This document shows positions 1 through 44,477 of a stretch of 49,142 nt of DNA, one piece after another. The notes beneath the pieces were generated by a model. That model was not told the DNA's origin. It saw only the letters and a list, made by a program, of their open reading frames with translations, and did not search any database. Position numbers and translations under genes: made by a program. Positions within the stretch are counted from its first letter, which is position 1. Every line of letters begins with the position of its first letter. Origin of the DNA: a virus; the IMG/VR virus record IMGVR_UViG_3300025030_000005, positions 64,001 to 113,142 of that record; one strand, 5' to 3'.

Positions 1-3000
1 AACCGTTCTTATTTCCACCCTGTATTCCTTAAGCCAGCTATCAGAAGTAGAGACTCCTAAGGGGGTATCTACTGCATAGTCATTTAGGTTAAAGTTAATA
101 GTTGCGGGTTTTCTCCAAGTAAACTTAGCATCTCTACCAACAAAGTTGGTATCATTAGCCTGCCCCACTAGCTGCAATCCAGTTATGCCCTTCATGAATT
201 CAGTGTTGTCTACATACGGAGTTATAAATAGTGAGTAATAGGGATTATTAACTGTATCATCTAAGACTTCATTTATAGTTTGAGTAGTTCCGTCTGTATA
301 TTTAGACACACATAAGAACAAGTAATCCCCTTCTTCCGTTATCTCAGGAATAAATACTACCCCAGTAGTGTCTATAGGAGCCTGTGAGTATACTCCACCC
401 TTCCCATAAAATACTGTAACTCCTAACCAGAAAAGGTTATTAGAAGGCGGGGTATAGTAGACAGTAGCCCCAGTTTTCAATACTCCAGAACTATCAGTGT
501 AAATATAAGGCTCTGCCTTAACGTTCTTCACAGACCTATCTGGAGTTAGATTAAGCTGAGAGTAGTTAGGTATGGCTGTGGTAATGGGCAGGTCGGTTAG
601 ATCATCAGAGTATACCGACTCATCATATTCTACACAAGTTAGCTGCACTACCTCATCTTTATCTCTAGCTACAGATACTATCTTAAAAGGCTTTAGTACT
701 TTGGTATACTCGCCTAATACATATACGTCATCTGCGGTAGGAGCGGTGCTAGGAGTACTAGTTAAAGTAAAGGTAGAATACGTGCCCGCAGGTACAGACT
801 CAAGCGCCAATTCTTCAGATACTATACCAGAAGTAACCAACTGTATTGCGTAAGTTTTGCCGTTTTCCACAGTAATATCTTCATACACTTCTATCTCTAA
901 GGTGGTTGGATTGTAACTTTTTATCCTACCACCAAACCCCCATAGAGGAGTATCGTGCTGAACACCTACAATATCACCTACAGTGGAAAGAAGTCCGTAA
1001 GTAGAAGTCTTAAAAGTTACAGTCTTAGTTAATAGCCTAGAAACATTCAATGTATATTTAGCAAGAGCCTTAGCCTGCTCCTCACTAGTAACCCCAACTA
1101 GCTGCAAGGTATTTTTATATTCCTCTGCAGATTGATTTAGTTTGTATACAGGGTCCTCTACTAAAATAGTATCAGAGTCATAATCATTAGCATAGTTGTT
1201 AAACTGAACTTCATAAGCATTAGGAAGCTGCTTTATAGATGAGCCTGTCTCCGTGAAGTCATTTAAATTACTCATGTTAAAAATCTGAGTAATAGGCTTA
1301 TTCGGCCTATCTATGTCTAAAAATATACAACCTTCTGTATAATACAGAGAGCCTCTCATAGTAGCACATATAGCAGTAAGCCACTCTATAGCTGTTTTCG
1401 ATTGATCTATTACCAGATTGAGGCTAAACCTAGGCCTAGCCGCCTCAAAGTCTATAGAGGTAGAATCTGTTACAACTTCACCAGAGGGCAACACTCTCTC
1501 GTCACAATACTGCGCCATGATGTAAAAGTTAGCTAGCATTATTCCAAGCTTAGCATCTGAGATCTTAAAGTAATCTTTAAGGCCGTATCTACTATTAGTT
1601 ATAAGGTCGTACAAACACCAAACTGGGTTGTCAGTCCACTCTTTAGTAGATTTTAATTCACCAGTATAGCTGCCTTGCATAATGCGTCTAGCACTGTTAT
1701 AGTTCTCCGGTACACTTACCTTAGTCCCTTTCACAATAGACGTTACTGTAGGAAGCCCTCCAGATATATGCTCAGTTGCTTTTATGCTTATACCAAGTAG
1801 CGCTGTGTGCGGGTATATAAGCTTATCCTGTATTATCTCTACAATATCTTTAAGGTACACCCTATCAGTAATTAGAAGGTTGTCCTCATTACTTTCGGTG
1901 ACCCTGACAATTTTTATATCATATATACCAGCCTGTGCCACAGGTAGCATTAAAGAGTACTCTACCTCTGACTTTGTTTTACCTTTTATAGTGGCGGTCG
2001 TCGAGTCATCTTCTGTGTATAGGCTACTGCCTTCTAGTTTCCAGTATATTTTCACAGTTACTGCTGTCTCATTTAGATTTCCATTCGCACTCTTGTATAG
2101 CACAGGAGCAGATAAATTTACCTTTATTGAATCCACTATTTCTGAGGTAGTTACTACAACGCCGGGGGAATCCACAGACACAGTACCAGAAGGATCATTA
2201 TTTATTTGTAGATTATAAGAAATAGAATTTTCTATTTTATTAAAAAATTCCATAGCGCTATGGTCATCAGTATTTTGTACCCCTGAGTTATGGATCACAT
2301 ATTTAACTACGTAAGGGTCTAATACCGACATAGCTCCTTCAGGCAGAGGAGGAATACCTTCTATCGACGGAGGAGTAACAGGCCTAGCACACCCATATAC
2401 ATCTAAGTTAGTAGAAGTAAGCGGAACTATTTTTATTTTATACATCCCAGTTGCAGGAAATACAACCGTAGAAATAGTAGGTGGAATGGCCACTGTGTCT
2501 TGATTATCATAGATAGGCTTCGGACCCCAGAATGGCCCAGACACATTAGAGTAGTCTCCCAGATCGCTGGCTTCTTTCCAATATACTGTGAACTTCACCG
2601 GCCAGAAGATGCTCCAATAAGCTGACATGTAGATATCCACACTAGTGGCTGGAGTTTCTAACGTGTACTCCACTGAGTAGTGTCTATCATAAGTATTCCC
2701 ATTTTGGTAGATGGGAAAGTTTCTAACGTTAGGGACGATGGTACTTGTAGCATCTTCAGCCACGATTACAGGACTGTCCGGAGGTAACTGCGCGGAGTCC
2801 CCGTACCTGAGTAAAACTCCAATATCGGACTTGGGGTAAGCAGAGGCTCTACGACCATTTATTTCAATAGAAGAAGGCTCAACTTGACTTATCTCTCCCT
2901 CACACAAACCTATCTGCATACGCAGCCAGCTTGAGTTACCTACAGTGTCTTCTCCAATTACATCGTTGTAGGCATTAATAATATGCCCACCGACTCTATG

Positions 3001-3513
3001 AGTTCCATACACTATACCGATAGGAGTACCAATGACTGTGGTATTCTTTATACCAGAAAAGGTATATGTTGCCGATGTACTTGTTCCAGAATCAAAAGTA
3101 GGAAGTTGAGGTTGCCCCATTACTAGCTCTGAAACTCCACCTAGAGCTAAAGAAGCTGCGAATGCGTACACGTAAGGGTTGTTAGCCGTCATAGCATTAA
3201 CGGCGGCTATTACTGCGGCAGCAGCTATCTTAAATACTGCACTTTCGCCTTGTGGTATATCTCTACCAACAAATACAACATCAGACTCAACTACTTTAGT
3301 GTGCAGCTCTTTAGTATCTATAATGTAAATATCATTTAATTTGAAGGATGTCTTAGAAGCCTCTTCCCATCCATTTTCTGCCAAAAATACGTACAACTGA
3401 GGATATTCAAGCATAAGTTGCTCGAAGGATTGAATAAGCGTAGGCTTCTTTATTTCAATCGTATCCTGAAATTTTACATATTTTATTAAATCTTTATGAA
3501 AAGAAAATATCAT
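1..3513 (-). CDS. Central tail tip / host-specificity protein J-like, C-terminus beyond window
   Basis: The frame is open on the minus strand from an ATG at 3513 to the window edge, giving at least 1170 residues. The N-terminus starts MIFSFHKDLIKYVKF; residues around 115-200 carry GTPIGIVYGTHRVGG and QIGLCEGEISQVEPSSIEING, typical of the N-terminal ring domains of lambda gpJ-type proteins (HDII/TipJ family). Later segments (NPVWCLYDLITNSRYGL and LNLVIDQSKTAIEWLTAICA) match the conserved core of this family. It forms the distal tail tip and contacts the host receptor. The start overlaps the end of the NlpC gene by 20 bp. It is last in the M-JAMM-L-NlpC-J order, as J is in lambda. The receptor-binding end is not in the window. 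Confidence 0.9.
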   Translation of the reverse strand, partial: MIFSFHKDLIKYVKFQDTIEIKKPTLIQSFEQLMLEYPQLYVFLAENGWEEASKTSFKLNDIYIIDTKELHTKVVESDVVFVGRDIPQGESAVFKIAAAAVIAAVNAMTANNPYVYAFAASLALGGVSELVMGQPQLPTFDSGTSTSATYTFSGIKNTTVIGTPIGIVYGTHRVGGHIINAYNDVIGEDTVGNSSWLRMQIGLCEGEISQVEPSSIEINGRRASAYPKSDIGVLLRYGDSAQLPPDSPVIVAEDATSTIVPNVRNFPIYQNGNTYDRHYSVEYTLETPATSVDIYMSAYWSIFWPVKFTVYWKEASDLGDYSNVSGPFWGPKPIYDNQDTVAIPPTISTVVFPATGMYKIKIVPLTSTNLDVYGCARPVTPPSIEGIPPLPEGAMSVLDPYVVKYVIHNSGVQNTDDHSAMEFFNKIENSISYNLQINNDPSGTVSVDSPGVVVTTSEIVDSIKVNLSAPVLYKSANGNLNETAVTVKIYWKLEGSSLYTEDDSTTATIKGKTKSEVEYSLMLPVAQAGIYDIKIVRVTESNEDNLLITDRVYLKDIVEIIQDKLIYPHTALLGISIKATEHISGGLPTVTSIVKGTKVSVPENYNSARRIMQGSYTGELKSTKEWTDNPVWCLYDLITNSRYGLKDYFKISDAKLGIMLANFYIMAQYCDERVLPSGEVVTDSTSIDFEAARPRFSLNLVIDQSKTAIEWLTAICATMRGSLYYTEGCIFLDIDRPNKPITQIFNMSNLNDFTETGSSIKQLPNAYEVQFNNYANDYDSDTILVEDPVYKLNQSAEEYKNTLQLVGVTSEEQAKALAKYTLNVSRLLTKTVTFKTSTYGLLSTVGDIVGVQHDTPLWGFGGRIKSYNPTTLEIEVYEDITVENGKTYAIQLVTSGIVSEELALESVPAGTYSTFTLTSTPSTAPTADDVYVLGEYTKVLKPFKIVSVARDKDEVVQLTCVEYDESVYSDDLTDLPITTAIPNYSQLNLTPDRSVKNVKAEPYIYTDSSGVLKTGATVYYTPPSNNLFWLGVTVFYGKGGVYSQAPIDTTGVVFIPEITEEGDYLFLCVSKYTDGTTQTINEVLDDTVNNPYYSLFITPYVDNTEFMKGITGLQLVGQANDTNFVGRDAKFTWRKPATINFNLNDYAVDTPLGVSTSDSWLKEYRVEIRTV

Positions 3514-3892
3514 TTAGAACACCCTTATGCCGTAATTTTATAGCTACCCTAGACAACCATTTTCCAGAAGTAATGCTATGGACAGCTACTCCATTTTTAG
3601 TACTATGCAGAAAGTAATTTGACTTAATCATTATACCCAAATGTCTTGGAACGTTGTTCACATAGAAAACTACCACATCTCCATATGATGAATCATTAGC
3701 ACATTCGGTAAATCCATAAGACTTGTAATTCTCTATGATAAGATTTGGAGTATCATTGTACCAATCTTCTGGATAATCTAAATTAGGTATGGATATTCCA
3801 AATTCTCTTTCATAAAATAATCTTACTAACTGAAAGCAATCAACCCGGCCTGCGCCTTTACCGTAAGCTAATGAAAGATAGTCTAGATACAT
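3494..3892 (-). CDS. NlpC/P60-family tail tip cysteine peptidase (C-terminal half of lambda K)
   Basis: This is a 132-residue protein starting MYLDYLSLAYGKG. I chose the ATG at 3892 because it follows the L stop codon by one base; the longer frame only re-reads the end of L. It carries the NlpC/P60 catalytic pattern: Cys in GRVDCFQLVRLF, His in VPRHLGIMI, and a further His in FLHSTKNG. In lambda K this domain is fused to a JAMM peptidase. Here the two halves are separate genes with L between them. The expected role is processing of tail-tip components or cell-wall cleavage during entry. Confidence 0.88.
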   Translation of the reverse strand: MYLDYLSLAYGKGAGRVDCFQLVRLFYEREFGISIPNLDYPEDWYNDTPNLIIENYKSYGFTECANDSSYGDVVVFYVNNVPRHLGIMIKSNYFLHSTKNGVAVHSITSGKWLSRVAIKLRHKGVLNDIFFS

Positions 3893-3893
3893 A

Positions 3894-4535
3894 TTAAAAA
3901 TTAACCCTTCTGGCTTGCCTTGGAATTCCAGGGAACCCACCAAACCTAGATTCATTGGCATGTGCTCTACAGTCTGATAAATCTTTATTACATGTAGCCA
4001 GTTCTCCTGCATACATACAGGTATCTGGATCTTTGTATTTCCAATAGCATAGGTTGCCATACCTGCGCCTAGGAACTTTTATGTTGAAGTCACATACTGG
4101 ATCTAGAGAAAACTGAATAACAGTATCGGTAGAAGAATAAGAGTCTATGATAAACTCATCTTCCACATAAGCATCTAAATCTGGGCTATCACCATTGTCT
4201 GTAAATTTTTCATATACAGTAATTATTTTTACTCTTATACCCCTAAGCCCATTATACTTATTTATAAGGTCCTGAAATATTCTACCTGGGTTAGCCACTA
4301 GGATAGATGCTTTATTTATTTCCCCGGAGCTGGTCATATCAACCCCATTAAACATGACTGGGAATTTTATATATGTGACCCCTTGATAAGTAGCAGTATC
4401 ATTAGAATCAACTACATTTATAGTAGTTGCAGTTGGAGTAGTAGGTATATCTATGAAAGATATCAGATGTAGCAGCTGAGACTGCTCTCTAAGCAGTGTT
4501 TCTTCTTTAAAAAGGCCACTTATTTCTCTAGACAT
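3894..4535 (-). CDS. Minor tail protein L-like (Fe-S tail tip protein)
   Basis: The protein has 213 residues from MSREISGLFKEETLL. The ATG at 4535 overlaps the JAMM gene by 16 bp and is preferred over an upstream ATG at 4649 that would run deep inside that gene. The C-terminal third has the lambda gpL signature: Cys residues in DPVCDFNIKVP, GNLCYWKYKDPDTCMYAG, ATCNKDLSDCRAH and the ending SRFGGFPGIPRQARR. In lambda gpL such cysteines bind a 4Fe-4S cluster at the tail tip. Length is close to lambda L (232 residues). Confidence 0.87.
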   Translation of the reverse strand: MSREISGLFKEETLLREQSQLLHLISFIDIPTTPTATTINVVDSNDTATYQGVTYIKFPVMFNGVDMTSSGEINKASILVANPGRIFQDLINKYNGLRGIRVKIITVYEKFTDNGDSPDLDAYVEDEFIIDSYSSTDTVIQFSLDPVCDFNIKVPRRRYGNLCYWKYKDPDTCMYAGELATCNKDLSDCRAHANESRFGGFPGIPRQARRVNF

Positions 4536-4837
4536 TCTATATATCTCCAAGATGAACTGGACACAATAAGTGAGTCGTATTGTACTGTTCTCATAAATTC
4601 TAGGTCTGCTTCGGATGGGTCGGAAGTTCCGTTGACATGAGTGTGCCAAATAACTTTTATGTTTATCTTCTGGTTAAGCAAGGAGCACCATTCTTTTCTA
4701 CTGAAAAGAAACTTGTTAGGATCATTAGATACATTTGTAATTTCTATTAATTCACCTGACTCAGTAATTACTCCGCATCTTTCTGCTTTTCCATTGGCCA
4801 TAGTCTTAATAGTGTTTATCAAATGATCTTCTACCAC
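4520..4837 (-). CDS. JAMM/MPN-domain tail protein (N-terminal half of lambda K)
   Basis: This is a 105-residue protein with a GTG start directly abutting the TAG of the M gene. It contains IWHTHVNGTSDPSEADLEF, the His-x-His-x7-Ser-x2-Asp zinc motif of JAB1/MPN/Mov34 metalloproteases, with a likely catalytic Glu near the N-terminus. Lambda gpK carries this domain fused to NlpC/P60. Here it stands alone, upstream of L rather than downstream. It is probably a tail-tip assembly peptidase, and its activity is inferred from the intact motif. Confidence 0.83.
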   Translation of the reverse strand: MVEDHLINTIKTMANGKAERCGVITESGELIEITNVSNDPNKFLFSRKEWCSLLNQKINIKVIWHTHVNGTSDPSEADLEFMRTVQYDSLIVSSSSWRYIECLEK

Positions 4838-5212
4838 CTACAGCACCTCTTCCAATTTTATTTCTACAGAGTACAAAGGAGTGGCGGTGTTATGCCCAAA
4901 GTTTTTTCCTATGAACTCTTCATTTGAAAATCTTACTACGTACTGAGTTTTGTCTACAGGATCTACCCAGTAAAAAGATTCGTGAGTTCCTTTTCTAGCT
5001 ATGTAGAAATCCCTGATGGCTTTATACTGAATAGCGTTTAATGCTACATATGAAAAAGAAAATGTATTCTTAAGTCTACCTCTGGGCCTAATATCAGTTA
5101 TACCACTGTCCGAGGTAAATGTGATGTTGTTACTCTTTATGCCATAGTCTATTGGCATGGAAGGATTTGGTATCCTTTTTCCATCCGAGCCTACTGTGGG
5201 ATATGTTTCCAT
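4838..5212 (-). CDS. Minor tail protein M-like
   Basis: A 124-residue protein beginning METYPTVGSDGKRIPNP, with RARLKNTFSFSYVALN-like and FYWVDPVDKTQYVVRFSNEEF stretches typical of the lambda M / phage minor tail protein family. It sits first in the tail-tip block, after the tape measure gene, exactly where M sits in lambda. It has a strong AGGAGGAG ribosome site and its own upstream promoter and terminator pair, so the tip block may be a separate transcript. Confidence 0.75.
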   Translation of the reverse strand: METYPTVGSDGKRIPNPSMPIDYGIKSNNITFTSDSGITDIRPRGRLKNTFSFSYVALNAIQYKAIRDFYIARKGTHESFYWVDPVDKTQYVVRFSNEEFIGKNFGHNTATPLYSVEIKLEEVL

Positions 5213-5296: not shown

Positions 5297-8200
5297 TTAC
5301 TGCTGAGTAGCTAGTTTTACAGACTTGTACGTTGCCCCTCTTTTGGCGATGTCCATGTTTATAACATTAATTATCTGCGTATCGCTGGTAGTCGGCAAAT
5401 CTTTAGGGTCCACTATGTTAACGACCTGTAAGTTTATCACTCCAGAGTCTGCGCCTGCTACAGACCTACTAACACCTCCTACAAGACCTCCTTCAGCAAA
5501 CTTCTTAGCATTATGCTTTAGGAAGTAGTCTGCCCCATACATATCCACTGCTGGCTTATTTATAACCACTTCTCCTGGGGTGAGCCAAGCAGCAACCGAG
5601 TCCGTATTTGCTACCCCTGCATTCAAAGGAACCTGACCTCCTTCAGCAAACTTAGCAGCGCTAAGCCCGTTAGCTCCTAGAGTAAAATTACCCGCAGATG
5701 TGGAAGAAGACATTTGAGCACCCTTACCGCTTCCACCGCTACTAAATATCCCTACCAGTTGCTCAACAGACCACACCACAAATAATTTTACTAAGTACTT
5801 TTGTAGCTCTTTAACTATATCTTGCATAACACTGCCTAGAGTTGTTGCAAATGACTTCCAGCTCCATTCTAGCTTTGCAAGCTTAGTTATTGACTCATCA
5901 AGTAAGGTGTTCATACCTGTTAGGGTAGTGTTGGTTATGTCAGCTCCTAACTGTTGGGTGTTAGACTTTACATCTCCTTGAGCTTTTAGCGCAGAGTAAG
6001 ATCCTTTTCCAAAGTTAGAGAAGAATCCTGTATCCTCACTTTCTGCTTTCTTTCTCTTGATGGACTCTACTAAATCTTCTATAGTATAAAGCTTTTCCAC
6101 CATGAGTTCGTACTGCTGTAATTCGTCTGCGGTGAGATCTCTGCTTAACGACCTAGTGTTCAATGTAGCAATATCTTTCTCAAATGCTTCTTTCTTCTTA
6201 GCATTTATTTCTATCTCCATAGTTAGTACATCTATGTCGATATTGCGTACTTCATTAGCTGTCCTTGCTTCTTCTTTTTTAAGATCGGCAGTTTGTTTAA
6301 GAACTGAAAGTTCTTTATCTAACTGCTTTTCTACTCCTGCCGAAGTAAGCTTATTTCCAGCCTCAGGGCTAAAGCCGGGAATTTTTATTTCCGTAAGATT
6401 CATACCAGAGGCGGTAGTAAAGCCTTTTTCTGCAGTCACTTTGGAGATACTATCCATAAAAGCAGTGGGATTATCTTTGACATACTGAGTGTAGTTCTTG
6501 TAGTTTAGATTTCCAACATCAGTGTTAGGAAACTGAAAAGGCTTCTTTTTGCTAGGATCGTATTCAGCCCCCACTGCGCCTGCCATCTTAGTAATTTGAT
6601 CTTCTGTGAAGGCTTTTAAAGTTTGTGTCTCTAAGGTTTTAATGTAACCTTCAATAGCTTTCTTCTTTTCAGCATAAACCTCTGGGTCTTTTTCTCCTTT
6701 AATATCCTCTATAGCTGCTTTTAGGTCATTTTCAGTTCCACTAAGCATTAGCTGGCTGAGTAGTTTAGAGTTATCATTGGCAAATTTTCTAGCAGCATCT
6801 GCCATATCTATGCCGGTGATGGTATCTCCGCTGGTGGGTTTTTCACCTATACCCGGAGTAGGGTATGGATTAGTATCTGGGCCACCTTTAAGCTCTGGCT
6901 TTGCTTTTACGTACTTAGATACGTTGAGAGCTTCAGGGTCATTCTTAAGCGGATCTATTGGGTTACCGTATGAGATGGAAGACTGTTTAATAAGAAGCAT
7001 GTCAACTATTTTTCTAACCGTGGGATCAGCTTTAAAGTCAACTTCTAAAGTTGCCCTAGCTTCTTCTGCAGCAGATTTTGCTGCAGCTATTTTATCCTTG
7101 TTACCGCTGGCATTGGCTATAGAAGCTCTCTCCACAGAATCTATTTGAGCTAATTTGTCATTATAACTCATGGTGAATCCGCCCCATCCGCGATGGGACT
7201 TAGATTTTTCAAGTTGGTCTACCAGCTTATTGTAAGCATTTAAGTTATTATCAGACAAGGATTCCATCTGGTTATTAACGTTTTTTATAGACCTAGCCAA
7301 CTCCCCATACTTAGTTACGGATGTATCTATAACTCCATGAAGGGAGGGAGTGGTTCTTACTAGTTTCTCTATTTCTTCTTTGTGTTCTCTAGTTATATTT
7401 TTGTTAAGATTTCCTGCTTTAGTAGCCTCGCCGTAGATGCTAGTAAGGGATTGGAATGCTCGCTGAGTTGCCCCCATATCTTTAGCTAGCTTGTCATGTT
7501 CTCTACCTAAAGCCTGCACTTCTGAAGACACTCTACCAAAATAAGCTATAAGTCCTGATAAAAGTACCCCTAACCCAACCAGCCAAATAGTCAAAGGATT
7601 AGCTGCACTAAAAGCTATTATAGCAGTTCTAAATGAATATATAGCAGCTACTATCCCAGTCAATGCTGCGCCTGCAGCTAAGAATTTTCCCTCTACTGTA
7701 GATAGCCCCCTAGTAAGACTAAGTGCTAAGTCATACGCTAGCCCAAGCACTCCGTTAAAAGAAGTTATAGACCCAAACAATTGCACAAATGTTTGTCTTA
7801 ATACATTAAGCTTAGCTCCAACTCCTTCTAACGTTTTACTATAGGCTACAAGAGAGGCATTACCTAGAGAAACATTTTTTTCCATTTCCTCGAAGAAATC
7901 CGCATCGGCAGATACAGCCGCAGAAACAGATCTACCAGCGATCTGCCCAAACCCTCTTAGCAAGTCTTGGACAGGAATTGCTTTACCTCCGTCAGCAGTT
8001 TGGAGTGTACGTATAATCTCACTAAACTTATGCAATCTAGGGTTAAGCTGATCTAGCTCTAGGTTGTATGCTTTAGCTAAATCTTTAACACCCTTGGTGG
8101 GAGCCATCAGCCTAGTCAGCAACTGACCTGTACCAGTACCGATAGTAGAGGCTTTAACCCCCATCTGCGACATGGTTGCTATAATGGCAGTAGTCTGCTG

Positions 8201-10507
8201 TATAGAGAATCCTGCCTGCCTAGCCATAGGGGCTAAGTAGTTGAACACAGTAGAAAGTTCGTTTACCTCTAGCTTTGCAGAGTTAAGACCTGCGGTTAAG
8301 GTATCTGCTACTATAGCAGATTTACTAGCCTCAATATTCCACACGTTCAGCGCAGTAGTCATAACTCGGACTGCATTCTCTGCGCTAGAGCCAGTACCAG
8401 TAGCAAACATAGCAGTAACTCTAGAAACCAGCGGAACGTCTGTAGCGTTAACACCAGACTGGGCTAGAAGATTCATTAACTTCATGACATCTTCTAGGTT
8501 CATCTTAGAATTCCTAGCTATCATCATAGCGGCTAGGCCAAATTTATTTACATTTTCTGCTGAGGCGTTGGATATAGCCGCTGTATCTGCAAGAGCCTGA
8601 TTAAACTTTAACAGATCAGATATGGCGCTGTTTATCTGGTTGGATATGGCGAAGAAAGTACCTCTGATAAGGTAGAATTCTGCCATAGTTTTTGCCATCT
8701 CTTTGAACTTTATAGCAAAATTGTGGGTGCCCTTTCTAGCGTGGTCAAACGCTTCGTTCATCTTATAGGCTTCTGCTGTTACCCTTCTCATAGCGTCTAA
8801 GTTAGAAGGGTCAACTACTTCTACAGAATTTTTTACATAGCCTCCACCAGCCGCTTTATACTTAACTCCAGAGGTACCAGCTTGTTTATTCCAGTCAGCC
8901 TGCAATAGAGTCTCAGCCGACTTCGTGGATTTGTCAGCCTTTCTACGCTCTGCTGCAATTTCAGCTCGCCACTCACTTCCCATGGCTCTGAGTTCTCTGA
9001 TTCTAGTAGCTTGAGCTTTTCTAGCGTTATCTATTTCTAGCTTGAACTGATCTCCTAGAGTGGAAAGCTCTGACTGCCTAGACTTAACCGCAGCGTTAGC
9101 CTTTGTTTTAGCCGCGTTTATTTCAGCTTTCCAATCATCCCCCATATTTCTTAGAGCACGAATGCGGTCGGCTTGAGCTTTTCTGGCATTTGATATTTCT
9201 AGCTTGAACTGATCTCCTAGCGCAGAAAGTTCAGATTCTCTGCTTTTTGTAGCAGCGTTAGCCTTAGCTTTTGCTCTATTTATCTCGGTTACCCATTCAT
9301 CGCCCATAGTTCTAAGGGCATCGTTGCGGGCTTTAGCCTTTGCTTTCTCCCTAGATATCTCGGTAGCAAAGGTATCTCCAAGAGTAGAAAGTTCTTTTTT
9401 TCTAGCTGCTGCAGCTATTGCGTCTTCTTTAGACCTCAAAGAAGCTAGGTTATTTGATACTCCGTCTCCTACCTTTAAATCACTAAATCTTTTCTGAAGG
9501 GTCTTAAGTTCTGCATTTATTTCAGCTAGCTTAGTCGGGGTAAGTTTGGGATCTGATAGCGAAGATATTAACGCATCAAGTTGCTTGCGCATGTTGACTG
9601 TCTGCTCCACCGTGCTGGTAGACGAACTGGCAGAAAACAACGGGCTTACTTTATCATCCGGATGTTTGGTATATACAGGTAGACCGCTAGCATCTCTCGT
9701 TTTAGTAGTAGGTGCATAAGTATCTACCCTAAGAGGTACGCTTTTCATACCAAGCTGCATAGCAGCTATTATGCGATGATTACCTTCTTCTATCTCATAG
9801 TTAGCTTCGCCTGCCTTTTTGCGAACCCAAATAGCATCTTTTATACCATTTTTGCGTATGTTCTCTTTAAATGCTTCCCATTCTGCTTTGGAGTACTTAC
9901 CAGAATCCGGAGTGCCACCAGAAGATATAGCTTTATCCCTAAAGATAGAATCTTCTCCATTGGCCCCCTTTAGGCCCAGCAGTACTTTGGGGTCAACTCT
10001 ACCATGGTCACTTCTGGTCCTTGAATCAGGATAGTCTGTACGCTCATATACATTGTTGGGAACCTTTTTAGATAGTATTACTGAAAGGTCAAGAGCATTT
10101 TTCTTTGCCTTGGCAGAATAGTTCTCTAGGTCTGAATAGAATTTTTTTATTCTTTCAGATGATTTATCTGCATTTCTAGCCACAATAGCGGGCGCAAAAA
10201 TTTCTCCGGTAACGTCTTTAGCGACTTTGCCGAAGTTTTTGATATGATCTTCTGCTTTAACTATTTTCTCGTTAACATCTGAGGTATCTAGGGTTGCCTT
10301 CATATCAATTGCGTTAACGTGCTTGAGGGCAGCCATTTCTTTAGCGACTTTACTTATCTTCGCTTCTACACCAGTTAGCTTTTGTTCAAACCCTTTAATA
10401 TCCACCTTGCTAAAGGCGGATTCTATTTGAGCAAGTAAATCCTTAAACTTACCTTCTTCAAGAGTAAGAGATAGCTCAATTCCTAATCTCTGTTTTTTGT
10501 CTGCCAT
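5297..10507 (-). CDS. Tape measure protein with ParB-like insertion
   Basis: The protein has 1736 residues from MADKKQRLGIELSL; I chose the ATG at 10507 because GTAGGAG lies 10 bp upstream. It sets tail length and is ejected with the DNA. Order: N-terminal coiled coil (1-150); a ParB/sulfiredoxin-like segment (about 165-265) with EEGNHRIIAAMQLGMKSVPL; a charged repeat region (about 380-560) with recurring MGDEW-EI / LGDQFKLEI units; the TP901-type tape measure core (about 580-900, DVMKLMNLLAQSGV and TAIIATMSQMGV); hydrophobic segments near 960-1010; and a C-terminus with GGQVPLNAG/SVAAWLTPGEVVINKPA, common at tape measure C-termini. The ParB-like part is not usual for this family. Confidence 0.93.
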   Translation of the reverse strand: MADKKQRLGIELSLTLEEGKFKDLLAQIESAFSKVDIKGFEQKLTGVEAKISKVAKEMAALKHVNAIDMKATLDTSDVNEKIVKAEDHIKNFGKVAKDVTGEIFAPAIVARNADKSSERIKKFYSDLENYSAKAKKNALDLSVILSKKVPNNVYERTDYPDSRTRSDHGRVDPKVLLGLKGANGEDSIFRDKAISSGGTPDSGKYSKAEWEAFKENIRKNGIKDAIWVRKKAGEANYEIEEGNHRIIAAMQLGMKSVPLRVDTYAPTTKTRDASGLPVYTKHPDDKVSPLFSASSSTSTVEQTVNMRKQLDALISSLSDPKLTPTKLAEINAELKTLQKRFSDLKVGDGVSNNLASLRSKEDAIAAAARKKELSTLGDTFATEISREKAKAKARNDALRTMGDEWVTEINRAKAKANAATKSRESELSALGDQFKLEISNARKAQADRIRALRNMGDDWKAEINAAKTKANAAVKSRQSELSTLGDQFKLEIDNARKAQATRIRELRAMGSEWRAEIAAERRKADKSTKSAETLLQADWNKQAGTSGVKYKAAGGGYVKNSVEVVDPSNLDAMRRVTAEAYKMNEAFDHARKGTHNFAIKFKEMAKTMAEFYLIRGTFFAISNQINSAISDLLKFNQALADTAAISNASAENVNKFGLAAMMIARNSKMNLEDVMKLMNLLAQSGVNATDVPLVSRVTAMFATGTGSSAENAVRVMTTALNVWNIEASKSAIVADTLTAGLNSAKLEVNELSTVFNYLAPMARQAGFSIQQTTAIIATMSQMGVKASTIGTGTGQLLTRLMAPTKGVKDLAKAYNLELDQLNPRLHKFSEIIRTLQTADGGKAIPVQDLLRGFGQIAGRSVSAAVSADADFFEEMEKNVSLGNASLVAYSKTLEGVGAKLNVLRQTFVQLFGSITSFNGVLGLAYDLALSLTRGLSTVEGKFLAAGAALTGIVAAIYSFRTAIIAFSAANPLTIWLVGLGVLLSGLIAYFGRVSSEVQALGREHDKLAKDMGATQRAFQSLTSIYGEATKAGNLNKNITREHKEEIEKLVRTTPSLHGVIDTSVTKYGELARSIKNVNNQMESLSDNNLNAYNKLVDQLEKSKSHRGWGGFTMSYNDKLAQIDSVERASIANASGNKDKIAAAKSAAEEARATLEVDFKADPTVRKIVDMLLIKQSSISYGNPIDPLKNDPEALNVSKYVKAKPELKGGPDTNPYPTPGIGEKPTSGDTITGIDMADAARKFANDNSKLLSQLMLSGTENDLKAAIEDIKGEKDPEVYAEKKKAIEGYIKTLETQTLKAFTEDQITKMAGAVGAEYDPSKKKPFQFPNTDVGNLNYKNYTQYVKDNPTAFMDSISKVTAEKGFTTASGMNLTEIKIPGFSPEAGNKLTSAGVEKQLDKELSVLKQTADLKKEEARTANEVRNIDIDVLTMEIEINAKKKEAFEKDIATLNTRSLSRDLTADELQQYELMVEKLYTIEDLVESIKRKKAESEDTGFFSNFGKGSYSALKAQGDVKSNTQQLGADITNTTLTGMNTLLDESITKLAKLEWSWKSFATTLGSVMQDIVKELQKYLVKLFVVWSVEQLVGIFSSGGSGKGAQMSSSTSAGNFTLGANGLSAAKFAEGGQVPLNAGVANTDSVAAWLTPGEVVINKPAVDMYGADYFLKHNAKKFAEGGLVGGVSRSVAGADSGVINLQVVNIVDPKDLPTTSDTQIINVINMDIAKRGATYKSVKLATQQ

Positions 10508-10530
10508 AAATAAATATCTCCTACCCTTAA

Positions 10531-10547
10531 TTCCGATGTGTCGGAAG
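10531..10547. repeat. Dispersed palindrome copy 1
   Basis: TTCCGA-TGTG-TCGGAA. It lies 24 bp upstream of the tape measure start, just past the chaperone terminator and next to a TATAGT hexamer. It is the only copy inside the late block. Confidence 0.85.
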
Positions 10548-10561
10548 TCACTATACAACAA

Positions 10562-10607
10562 AAAGGCAGATAACCCCTTGGGGTACACCCCGACGTTATC
10601 TGCCTTT
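10562..10607 (-). terminator. Terminator between tail chaperone and tape measure genes
   Basis: AAAGGCAGATAAC pairs perfectly with GTTATCTGCCTTT (13 bp), with an inner GGGGT/ACCCC stem. On the minus strand it ends in TTTTTG. This may lower tape measure transcription relative to the tube gene. Confidence 0.8.
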
Positions 10608-11320: not shown

Positions 11321-12010
11321 TTAGTTTCTCCAGTGTTTTAGTAATTTGCTAGAATCTTCATTGTAACAATTTATGCGGTTATTCATGTACGCAAGATACT
11401 CTTCATGGTTCATATTATGTTTACTAGAGTTACAACTCTTGCATAATAGTTGAATGTTATACGCAAAATCAGAAGATCCTTCCCGCGTTATTGGAATAAT
11501 ATGGTCTACTGTGTAATGATCTTTTAGCGATTTTCCACAATATACGCATTTTCCGAGTTGTTCAATAAAAGTCTCTTCTATATCGTGTTCAGTATGGTAA
11601 CCTTTTAGATTACGTTTTAAGCACCTTCGGTGTCTTTCCCTATTATTATACTTGTCTCTATTTTTAGCTCGCCAATCCGCATTATACTTTAACATCTTTT
11701 CTCGGTTAGCTTTAATATACTCTCTACTGCTCTTATTTAATTTTTCTTTGTTTGCCAATCTATATTTTTTGGCTGCAGCGCGCTGTACCTCTGGATTCTC
11801 TTGTTGGTATCTAGAAGTCCTAGCAATTACTGTTTCTTTATTTTTAGAATAATAATTTTTATGATAATTTTTTGTTTTATCCTTATTATTATTTCTCCAA
11901 ATTAAGTTGTACTCTTTAGTACAGTCTTTGCACCATTTGTATGGTTTACCTTTAGACGTATAAAATTCGCTCAATGATTTTTCTTCGTTACATTTAGTAC
12001 ACTTTATCAT
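11321..12010 (-). CDS. HNH homing-type endonuclease
   Basis: The protein has 229 residues. The N-terminal zinc motif CTKCNEEKSLSEFY ... WCKDC (residues 4-30) precedes a long basic linker. The C-terminal HNH core (about 155-197) has KCVYCGK, TVDHIIPITREG and LLCKSCNSSK: the DH pair, the Asn and four zinc cysteines are all present. It lies between the tube and chaperone genes, a common site for free-standing phage homing endonucleases. It is AT-richer than neighbours and shows no intron splice signals nearby. It is probably a selfish insertion. Confidence 0.9.
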   Translation of the reverse strand: MIKCTKCNEEKSLSEFYTSKGKPYKWCKDCTKEYNLIWRNNNKDKTKNYHKNYYSKNKETVIARTSRYQQENPEVQRAAAKKYRLANKEKLNKSSREYIKANREKMLKYNADWRAKNRDKYNNRERHRRCLKRNLKGYHTEHDIEETFIEQLGKCVYCGKSLKDHYTVDHIIPITREGSSDFAYNIQLLCKSCNSSKHNMNHEEYLAYMNNRINCYNEDSSKLLKHWRN

Positions 12011-42635: not shown

Positions 42636-42710
42636 GTCCCCTTCGTCTAGTGATTAGGACACTCACCCTTCAAGTGAGAAACGCAAGTTTAAGTCTTGCA
42701 GGGGACGCCA
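42636..42710 (+). tRNA. tRNA-Glu(TTC), copy 1 of 3
   Basis: GTCCCCT pairs with AGGGGAC. Anticodon stem CTCAC/GTGAG with loop CCTTCAA. T-arm GCAAG/CTTGC with loop TTTAAGT, where position 56 is T instead of C. CCA encoded. Identical to 43305-43379 and 44962-45036. Confidence 0.92.
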
Positions 42711-42726
42711 ATAAAGGAGAAAGGTC

Positions 42727-43074
42727 ATGGTAGACTTCACAGACGATCTTCCAGCTCGACCGGAACATAAAATAGTACACTTCACCTGGTATGACATCGT
42801 GAACGACGACAAGCCGGTGCTGTGCTCAATCTGCAACAGGGTTACGAAGGTTGCTAACTGCGTCTATGTAACCAGAGACGATGGAGACGTCGATGCCATT
42901 GCAGAGAAGTCTTGTCTTGGCGAAACTTTCCTTCAGCGCCAGAAAAAAGGAGAAGGGATGAAGCAGAGAAATGCTGCCCGTCTCTGGCACATCAAGAAGC
43001 CGGTGCTGAAACTGGTGCATTCCACTGCCAAGAAGAAAAGTAGGAAAGTGGTGAGGAGAACCGTCAAAGACTAG
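42727..43074 (+). CDS. Hypothetical protein, 115 residues
   Basis: MVDFTDDLPARPEHKIVHFT. LCSICNRVTKVANC may bind zinc; very basic C-terminus KKKSRKVVRRTVKD. The start region is shared with the gene at 45053 through duplication of the tRNA and leader. Confidence 0.72.
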   Translation: MVDFTDDLPARPEHKIVHFTWYDIVNDDKPVLCSICNRVTKVANCVYVTRDDGDVDAIAEKSCLGETFLQRQKKGEGMKQRNAARLWHIKKPVLKLVHSTAKKKSRKVVRRTVKD

Positions 43075-43084
43075 GAGGTGTACC

Positions 43085-43300
43085 ATGTCTTTTGAGTTCA
43101 CTAACACGATCATATTAAGGTACTATCGCCCAGAAACACGTGATTTTACTTACAAATTGGTTGTTGTGGGCGAGGGACTGGTTCCTTACACTTCGTTGTT
43201 CTTAGCTGTTAGCGCGGCTGAAGAAATGCACTTAAGGCTGCGGAGAAGCGGAAAGATAATAGTTCGAACGATTTATCCGAAAGAGGAGAAAATAAAATAG
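43085..43300 (+). CDS. Hypothetical protein, 71 residues
   Basis: MSFEFTNTIILRYYRPETRD, beta-rich then helical. AGGAGG upstream. Unknown. Confidence 0.7.
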   Translation: MSFEFTNTIILRYYRPETRDFTYKLVVVGEGLVPYTSLFLAVSAAEEMHLRLRRSGKIIVRTIYPKEEKIK

Positions 43301-43304
43301 TTCA

Positions 43305-43379
43305 GTCCCCTTCGTCTAGTGATTAGGACACTCACCCTTCAAGTGAGAAACGCAAGTTTAAGTCTTGCAGGGGACGCCA
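43305..43379 (+). tRNA. tRNA-Glu(TTC), copy 2 of 3
   Basis: Identical to copy 1 over 75 nt, 4 bp after a stop codon. Confidence 0.92.
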
Positions 43380-43393
43380 AATAAGGACAAGTT

Positions 43394-43573
43394 ATGAATA
43401 ACTACATAGTTACGTCATACCATTGCTACGGAGCCAAAGAGACACCTTGTAACACCGAAGAGGAGGTATTGACCGCAATAAAAGATGCCGAACTAGGACT
43501 TATTTACCAAGTAACCAGCCCTACTGGTAAAGACGTATCTAGGTTTGTCATGAAAGAAAAAGTTAATGTATAA
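43394..43573 (+). CDS. Hypothetical protein, 59 residues
   Basis: MNNYIVTSYHCYGAKETPCN. Lies between tRNA-Glu copy 2 and tRNA-Ile; AAGGAC is a modest ribosome site. Compact alpha/beta; unknown. Confidence 0.62.
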   Translation: MNNYIVTSYHCYGAKETPCNTEEEVLTAIKDAELGLIYQVTSPTGKDVSRFVMKEKVNV

Positions 43574-43576
43574 TTC

Positions 43577-43656
43577 AGGGGAGTAGCTCAGTCTTGGTGC
43601 AGAGCAATCGCCTTATAAGCGATAGGTCGTGGGTTCGATTCCCACCTCTCCTACCA
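43577..43656 (+). tRNA. tRNA-Ile(TAT)
   Basis: AGGGGAG pairs with CTCTCCT (one G-U). Anticodon stem ATCGC/GCGAT with loop CTTATAA. T-arm GTGGG/CCCAC. CCA encoded. Reads AUA directly without lysidine. Confidence 0.9.
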
Positions 43657-43660
43657 AACT

Positions 43661-43916
43661 GACTCATAGCTGCGTTAGTACAGTTAGCAACCACATTCTT
43701 GGAAAAATTCCTACGTTAAGAGAGGTTGAGAGTGGAAGGCACTATAGCCGGAGTTGTGTGTTTCTACGTAGCTTTTGAGTCACAGGCCGGTCACGTACAG
43801 GCTGCCTAACTTAGACCTGGTGGTTTTGTACGTGATTGGCCGATCTTTCCAGATTTACCAGATAGGTATTAAGAGCCTCTTTGAGGTCGCCTGTCGAAGT
43901 CACTTATTAGTGACTG
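43661..43916 (+). ncRNA. Multi-stem structured RNA after tRNA-Ile
   Basis: Stem 1: GACTCA and AGCTGCGT (43661-43675) pair with ACGTAGCT and TGAGTC (43766-43781), 14 bp. Stem 2: GGCCG and GTCACGTACA (43785-43799) with TGTACGTGAT and TGGCC (43827-43841), 15 bp with two G-U. Stem 3: AGTCACT/AGTGACT near 43899-43916. It starts 4 nt after the tRNA, so it is probably co-transcribed and processed with it. No ORF; no known RNA family recognised. Confidence 0.65.
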
Positions 43917-43950
43917 TTGCAATTTATTAAACACCTAGGAGGCTTCACCA

Positions 43951-44172
43951 ATGCTTACTTCCAACATTCGCAAGCAAGATTTCCTCCATACGCTTAAAAC
44001 CCTCAGCAAAAAGAAAAAGTTCCTTCCCAAGCCACTTTTTCTCTTCAAATTGAAGCTCCTCATCACAGCACAGTTCCTCGCAGCAATTCCTACCAAAGCA
44101 GCAATCCTCATCAAAGGCATCGCCTTCTTGAATTCCAATTTCTACATATCCACCCACCTCACTACCGCTTAG
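43951..44172 (+). CDS. Basic hydrophobic protein, 73 residues
   Basis: MLTSNIRKQDFLHTLKTLSK, then a Lys-rich and hydrophobic region LITAQFLAAIPTKAAILIK. AGGAGG lies 8 bp upstream. Opposite-strand frames of similar length lack ribosome sites. Possibly membrane-active. Confidence 0.5.
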   Translation: MLTSNIRKQDFLHTLKTLSKKKKFLPKPLFLFKLKLLITAQFLAAIPTKAAILIKGIAFLNSNFYISTHLTTA

Positions 44173-44195
44173 CCTTCAGCACAGAGTTATCCAAC

Positions 44196-44211
44196 TTCCG
44201 ATACATCGGAA
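44196..44211. repeat. Dispersed palindrome copy 19
   Basis: TTCCGA-TACA-TCGGAA. The stretch 44212-44440 after it has no supported gene. Confidence 0.85.
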
Positions 44212-44440
44212 CTTGTGCTGATTTTACATCTTAGAGTTGAGCTATAGGCAGGTGCAAAATAGCGCTTAATCAACTATTTACACACCAATCTCTATCTTAC
44301 CTTCTAAATTTCATCTCGTAAATTCATCTCATTTTCCACAATACGCTTGCTGCGTGGTGCCTAGCTGCGCCTGTATACCAAGTTGCGCCCAAATTACGTC
44401 CAAAATTTTCGACATAACTCAATGCTGGATTGAGGGCAAC

Positions 44441-44457
44441 TTCCGGCGTATCGGAAG
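44441..44457. repeat. Dispersed palindrome copy 20
   Basis: TTCCGG-CGTA-TCGGAA, G-U-compatible change as in copy 15; 20 bp before the next ATG. Confidence 0.82.
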
Positions 44458-44477
44458 TCAGCCAAAGGAGAACACCC

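Follow-up and report, generated by a model that had tools for sequence, protein, structure and literature searches.

Members of the ParB-CTPase fold were surveyed in 2025, and binders of ATP, CTP and GTP were found, with GxxR Arg-to-Ala mutants serving as non-binding controls for NTP binding in family members other than the one described here; orphan proteins of the fold often lack Box III, and fusion to a tape measure or tail protein is not reported in the main text of the survey (PMC12704722). The DdrB-like ParB clade of polyvalent proteins, a different clade, has been proposed to serve early in infection as a DNase regulated by NTP or as a sensor of NTP, in a study in which tape measure proteins go unmentioned (PMC5512222). 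In phage 80alpha, the three tape measure copies have their N-termini at the neck, just under the end of the DNA, and their C-termini at the tip (PMC11661146), and the tape measure protein has been linked to the entry-blocking defence SNIPE (PMC13190303). Effectors can be linked to a tape measure scaffold, as indicated by tape-measure-derived contractile-injection effectors (PMC13277306) and by a DNase effector with an N-terminus resembling tape measure proteins (PMC10240207).

A ParB/sulfiredoxin-type domain in a phage tape measure protein

The window analysed here is a stretch of 49,142 nucleotides that spans bases 64001-113142 of a viral record of 113 kb. Its head and tail genes, including a portal, a T5-type terminase (~31% identity to T5-like phages), a major head protein and a J-like protein, indicate a siphovirus-like phage. 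The intact gene P0001 (5297..10507, minus strand; start ATG at 10507, within a longer GTG ORF 5297-10588) encodes a 1736 aa protein that matches TIGR01760 (E=6.3e-31, score 107.7 against a cut-off of 28.8, residues 619-910), PF10145 (E=1.2e-30, 107.3 against 33.2, residues 666-838) and PHROG tape measure families (down to 6e-24). It is followed by a minor tail gene (phrog_30, window 3494-4060) and the J-like gene (phrog_31, 2-3513). With a core above the curated cut-offs and a position in the tail module, P0001 is a tape measure protein, as a sequence-only reading of this DNA had claimed. An Endonuclease VII/HNH-type gene (window 11321-12010, minus strand) lies in the tail module shortly upstream of P0001, and the window holds seven tRNA genes, with three tRNA-Glu(ttc) within 2.4 kb (window 42636-45036).

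The same reading had noticed ParB-like motifs at 9700-10030, which corresponds to residues ~160-269 of this protein, and the strings it quoted are present on the minus strand: KAEWEAF, NGIKDAI, EEGNHR and LGMKSVP start at residues 207, 220, 240 and 252. They fall in a domain at residues ~157-269 (9701..10039, minus strand), in which a helix-loop segment (9830..9889, minus strand) with a predicted helix at residues 207-220 aligns with the helix-loop of ParB and Noc, and Box II, or P motif (EEGNHR, residues 240-245; 9773..9790, minus strand), supplies the GxxR arginine of the fold (PMC12704722) as GNHR. Across 16 aligned homologues, E-G-N-H-R (and with it the GxxR), the G of NGI, one Ala and one Pro are invariant. 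A Pfam scan of the isolated segment (E<=1) returned PF02195 (ParB_N) alone, at 28.4 bits against a cut-off of 26.3, while the whole protein scored below the cut-off (23.2). A held-out profile, built from 14 phage homologues with both of the tape measure proteins discussed here left out, matched residues 157-269 at E=4.2e-22, compared with 0.9 for the best of 2000 shuffles, and the match lies well outside chance. Searched against the PDB, the alignment profile found Noc (3e-8), ParB (1e-6), sulfiredoxin (3e-4) and SerK (5e-3); PDB matches by phmmer to designed filaments and to VNAR antibodies were set aside as chance.

AlphaFold2 modelled the domain as alpha/beta (mean pLDDT 76, core >90), neither an unrelated fold nor a pure coiled coil. 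The top Foldseek matches of the model all belong to the ParB/Srx superfamily (Srx, ParB, Noc, KorB and SerK; best E 1e-3, probability 1.0), VIA-align gave a moderate best Z of 6.5, and the best match in the BFVD viral library was gp284 of phage G (1e-8). Because sequence and structure agree, a ParB/sulfiredoxin fold is well supported for the domain, in line with the fold proposed from the letters alone. It is the only ParB-like match in the 113-kb record and lies within the N-terminal coiled-coil region of P0001.

No Box III ENLQR-type motif was found downstream of EGNHR in P0001, and no Pfam match to the ParB HTH or dimerisation domains, so canonical partition ParB/Noc is ruled out. The sulfiredoxin motif GGCHR holds the catalytic Cys; all 16 homologues have Asn at that position (EGNHR), and sulfiredoxin identity is ruled out as well. 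The SerK alignment begins at SerK residue 34, past the catalytic Glu30, and the family is without a conserved acid at the expected place. By its retained phosphate-binding GxxR, we infer that the domain is of the NTP-binding type, and NTP binding is predicted. Since P0001 carries one extra domain only, it is not a polyvalent protein in the sense of one with several effector-type domains.

Distribution of the domain among relatives and other phage proteins

The closest comparison is provided by three viral contigs (L004-L006) in which the tape measure core is 80% identical to that of P0001. Their profile aligns residues 1-59, a conserved tape measure N-terminus (10331..10507, minus strand; i-E 1e-6; 31% identity over residues 1-92 by BLAST), and then residues 355-1733, with nothing between. 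The segment missing or unalignable in the relatives (residues 60-354; 9446..10330, minus strand) contains the ParB-like domain. On its C-terminal side follow coiled-coil tandem repeats visible in the sequence (residues 376-570; 8798..9382, minus strand), which differ at the same place in the three relatives, the TIGR01760 core (residues 619-910; 7778..8653, minus strand) inside the region of 80% identity, and hydrophobic segments found by a Kyte-Doolittle scan, which are candidate membrane-spanning segments (residues 938-990; 7538..7696, minus strand). The records of the three relatives, which are fragments, contain no ParB-like match. The existence of three relatives with so similar a core and without the domain indicates that the module was gained or lost, and a separate parB gene in the relatives that became fused here was rejected on the same fragmentary records.

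In more distant tape measure proteins (L059-L061) GxHR was not found. When viral contigs were searched with the domain as a single sequence, only weak ParB-like matches appeared, none in tape measure proteins, and tblastn of the domain against isolate phages gave no tape measure gene among the matches listed. Genome-contig scans yielded no relatives confirmed under a strict tblastn check, which does not imply absence from bacterial genomes, and a search with a degenerate EEGNHR DNA pattern returned one contig.

A second candidate capture was found on contig L015/L067, where a 2368-aa protein carries the domain at residues ~350-441 (held-out profile E 3e-20) and the domain model is again ParB/Srx (best Foldseek E 1.5e-5). 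The gene comes after one with a weak tube-like match (PF18906, E=0.0013) and two small ORFs at the position of tail chaperones, the protein matches PF10145 weakly but repeatedly, and two further tail-like genes follow; on the basis of this gene order and the weak PF10145 and tube matches, it is probably the tape measure protein of an unrelated phage. Profile comparison of its core with that of P0001 gave no usable signal. A GIY-YIG-type ORF (4277-4858 of the contig, identified by eye) stands immediately before the gene. In the domain tree, the L015 domain groups with those of L069, L070 and L076 (support 0.82), and among 60 other domains that of P0001 is the farthest from it. Nearest to the P0001 domain is a family of mostly stand-alone proteins that share an extended N-terminal segment (clade support 0.95). 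As the two domains sit on different branches, they are read as two independent captures of the EGNHR domain, each N-terminal to the core. The survey of tape measure proteins for the same insertion suggested in the sequence-only reading has thus, within a limited contig set, produced one probable further case, with no ParB-like match in the three close relatives and no GxHR in the three distant ones.

Most members of the wider EGNHR family are either small or giant phage proteins, and polyvalent domains occur in some of them. The last scan added 74 loci, with 22 ORFs of <=250 aa, one of 251-599 aa and 51 of >=600 aa. One giant (L105; 7821-13157, 1779 aa) combines the EGNHR ParB-like domain with an ADP-ribosyltransferase-exoenzyme-like domain (ART), ArdC-N and MPTase-PolyVal, and so is polyvalent by the measure of several effector-type domains; partner domains occur also in L039 and L069. 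Those of other giants are a weak ART-PolyVal (L069), Zeta toxin (L084) and LPD38 (L039). A conserved family of ~2900-aa phage proteins (L078-L081, L087-L094), mostly starting MPVGMETDIQIKA..., has the EGNHR domain around residue 635. The gene of phage G gp284 belongs to a cluster of nucleotide/NAD genes and not to a virion module.

Proposed role and rival explanations

The best reading, which we judge about as likely to be right as wrong, is that the domain is an NTP-binding cargo or effector module that is delivered alongside the tape measure protein and acts at the entry site. The module, which keeps its phosphate-binding GxxR loop, would ride in the tail lumen on the side of the head, probably as three copies next to the leading end of the DNA; ejection would deliver it together with the tape measure protein, and in the new host it would act at the entry site in the manner of the ParB-type modules found in polyvalent proteins, with nucleotide bound or hydrolysed and DNA possibly nicked or held. 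If the phage is built like 80alpha (PMC11661146), the domain, at residues 157-269 out of 1736, should lie in the head-proximal tail and exit last, just before or with the DNA end. The statement that tape measure proteins are threaded into the cell ahead of the DNA, made in the sequence-only reading, is to this extent qualified. A cargo role is plausible because the family recurs as a module in giant phage proteins of many domains, including some of polyvalent type. Counted in its favour are the fold and homology, the relatives without the domain, the giant polyvalent-type kin, the L015 capture, the invariant EGNHR, the place of the tape measure N-terminus in 80alpha (PMC11661146) and the existence of tape-measure-derived injected effectors (PMC13277306); counted against it are that the residues point to no activity, with Box III, HTH and the Srx Cys all absent, that the closest kin stand alone and that gp284 lies outside any virion module. 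Of the enzymatic or DNA-binding cargo acting at entry that had been suggested from the letters, the cargo part is plausible through the giant kin; the residues speak for neither activity.

The domain may instead work within the virion, binding either the end of the DNA or a protein of the neck at the head-proximal end of the tail, or acting as a nucleotide-dependent assembly switch, with no host role. This is unlikely, even though the head-proximal position expected from 80alpha (PMC11661146) and the placement of both captures N-terminal to the core would suit it, as three close relatives make a like tape measure protein without the domain and the EGNHR family is widespread outside tails. Neutral or near-neutral capture, in which the coiled-coil part tolerates inserts and the domain contributes mainly length or nothing that is selected, is more unlikely still: the flanking repeats vary freely among the relatives and TP901-1 tolerates duplication of an N-terminal region (PMC5099701), but all the family-invariant residues (E-G-N-H-R and NG-I) are retained, the same family was captured twice independently, and the frame is intact with a composition like that of the rest of the gene.

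That the ParB-like segment is a chance match in coiled coil, or an assembly chimera, is very improbable. The whole-protein ParB_N score below the cut-off speaks for such an artefact, but it is set against the separation of the held-out profile from the shuffles, the confident core of the alpha/beta model, a reading frame that runs uninterrupted through the domain, and GC and GC3 in line with those of the rest of the gene; a chance or coiled-coil match was rejected on the AlphaFold2 model, the Foldseek matches and the held-out profile.

More broadly, and only tentatively, tape measure proteins could be a recurrent docking place for ParB/Srx modules that are ejected beside the leading genome end as NTP-dependent effectors or DNA-end handlers, in which case the tail ruler would double as an injected effector of polyvalent type. 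Elsewhere the domain stands by itself or belongs to giant phage proteins of many domains, so the tail ruler may in addition bring a functional component into the cell under infection. The tape measure protein is one of the earliest phage proteins to arrive at the inner membrane, and a conserved NTP-binding-type domain gained independently at least twice would place an early effector or DNA-end handler at the entry site. As close relatives without the domain exist, its role is open to simple presence/absence or deletion tests.

Comparison with known systems

The closest stand-alone counterparts, Bacillus phage G gp284 and like proteins, have in common with P0001 a GANGE-type N-terminal segment, a KYS..W..F helix, NGI, EGNHR, QLG and VP; they are free proteins of 142-186 aa, whereas the P0001 domain sits within a tape measure protein. 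With the ParB-CTPase fold proteins ParB, Noc, SerK and sulfiredoxin (PMC12704722) the domain shares the fold, the Box I helix-loop and the Box II GxxR, and differs from them in that Box III, the HTH and the dimerisation domain were not found in P0001 and the Srx Cys is missing. In the ParB modules of polyvalent proteins (Iyer et al. 2017, PMC5512222), the ParB/Srx fold is likewise a building block of large phage proteins that are putatively delivered, and relatives of the P0001 domain share proteins with ART, ArdC-N, MPTase-PolyVal and LPD38. The polyvalent family described there is DdrB-like ParB, whereas the Pfam scan gave no match to such a model in P0001, which has no other polyvalent domain. 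The tape measure protein of mycobacteriophage TM4, as cited in PMC13277306, and the tape-measure-derived contractile-injection effectors Sle1 and Tme (PMC13277306) are scaffolds with an extra functional domain that is ejected, as is proposed for P0001; their extras consist of peptidoglycan hydrolase motifs or of effector domains at the C-terminus, whereas that of P0001 is a ParB/Srx fold on the N-terminal side. P0001 combines two known kinds of protein, the tape measure protein with an extra domain and the ParB/Srx module of large phage proteins.
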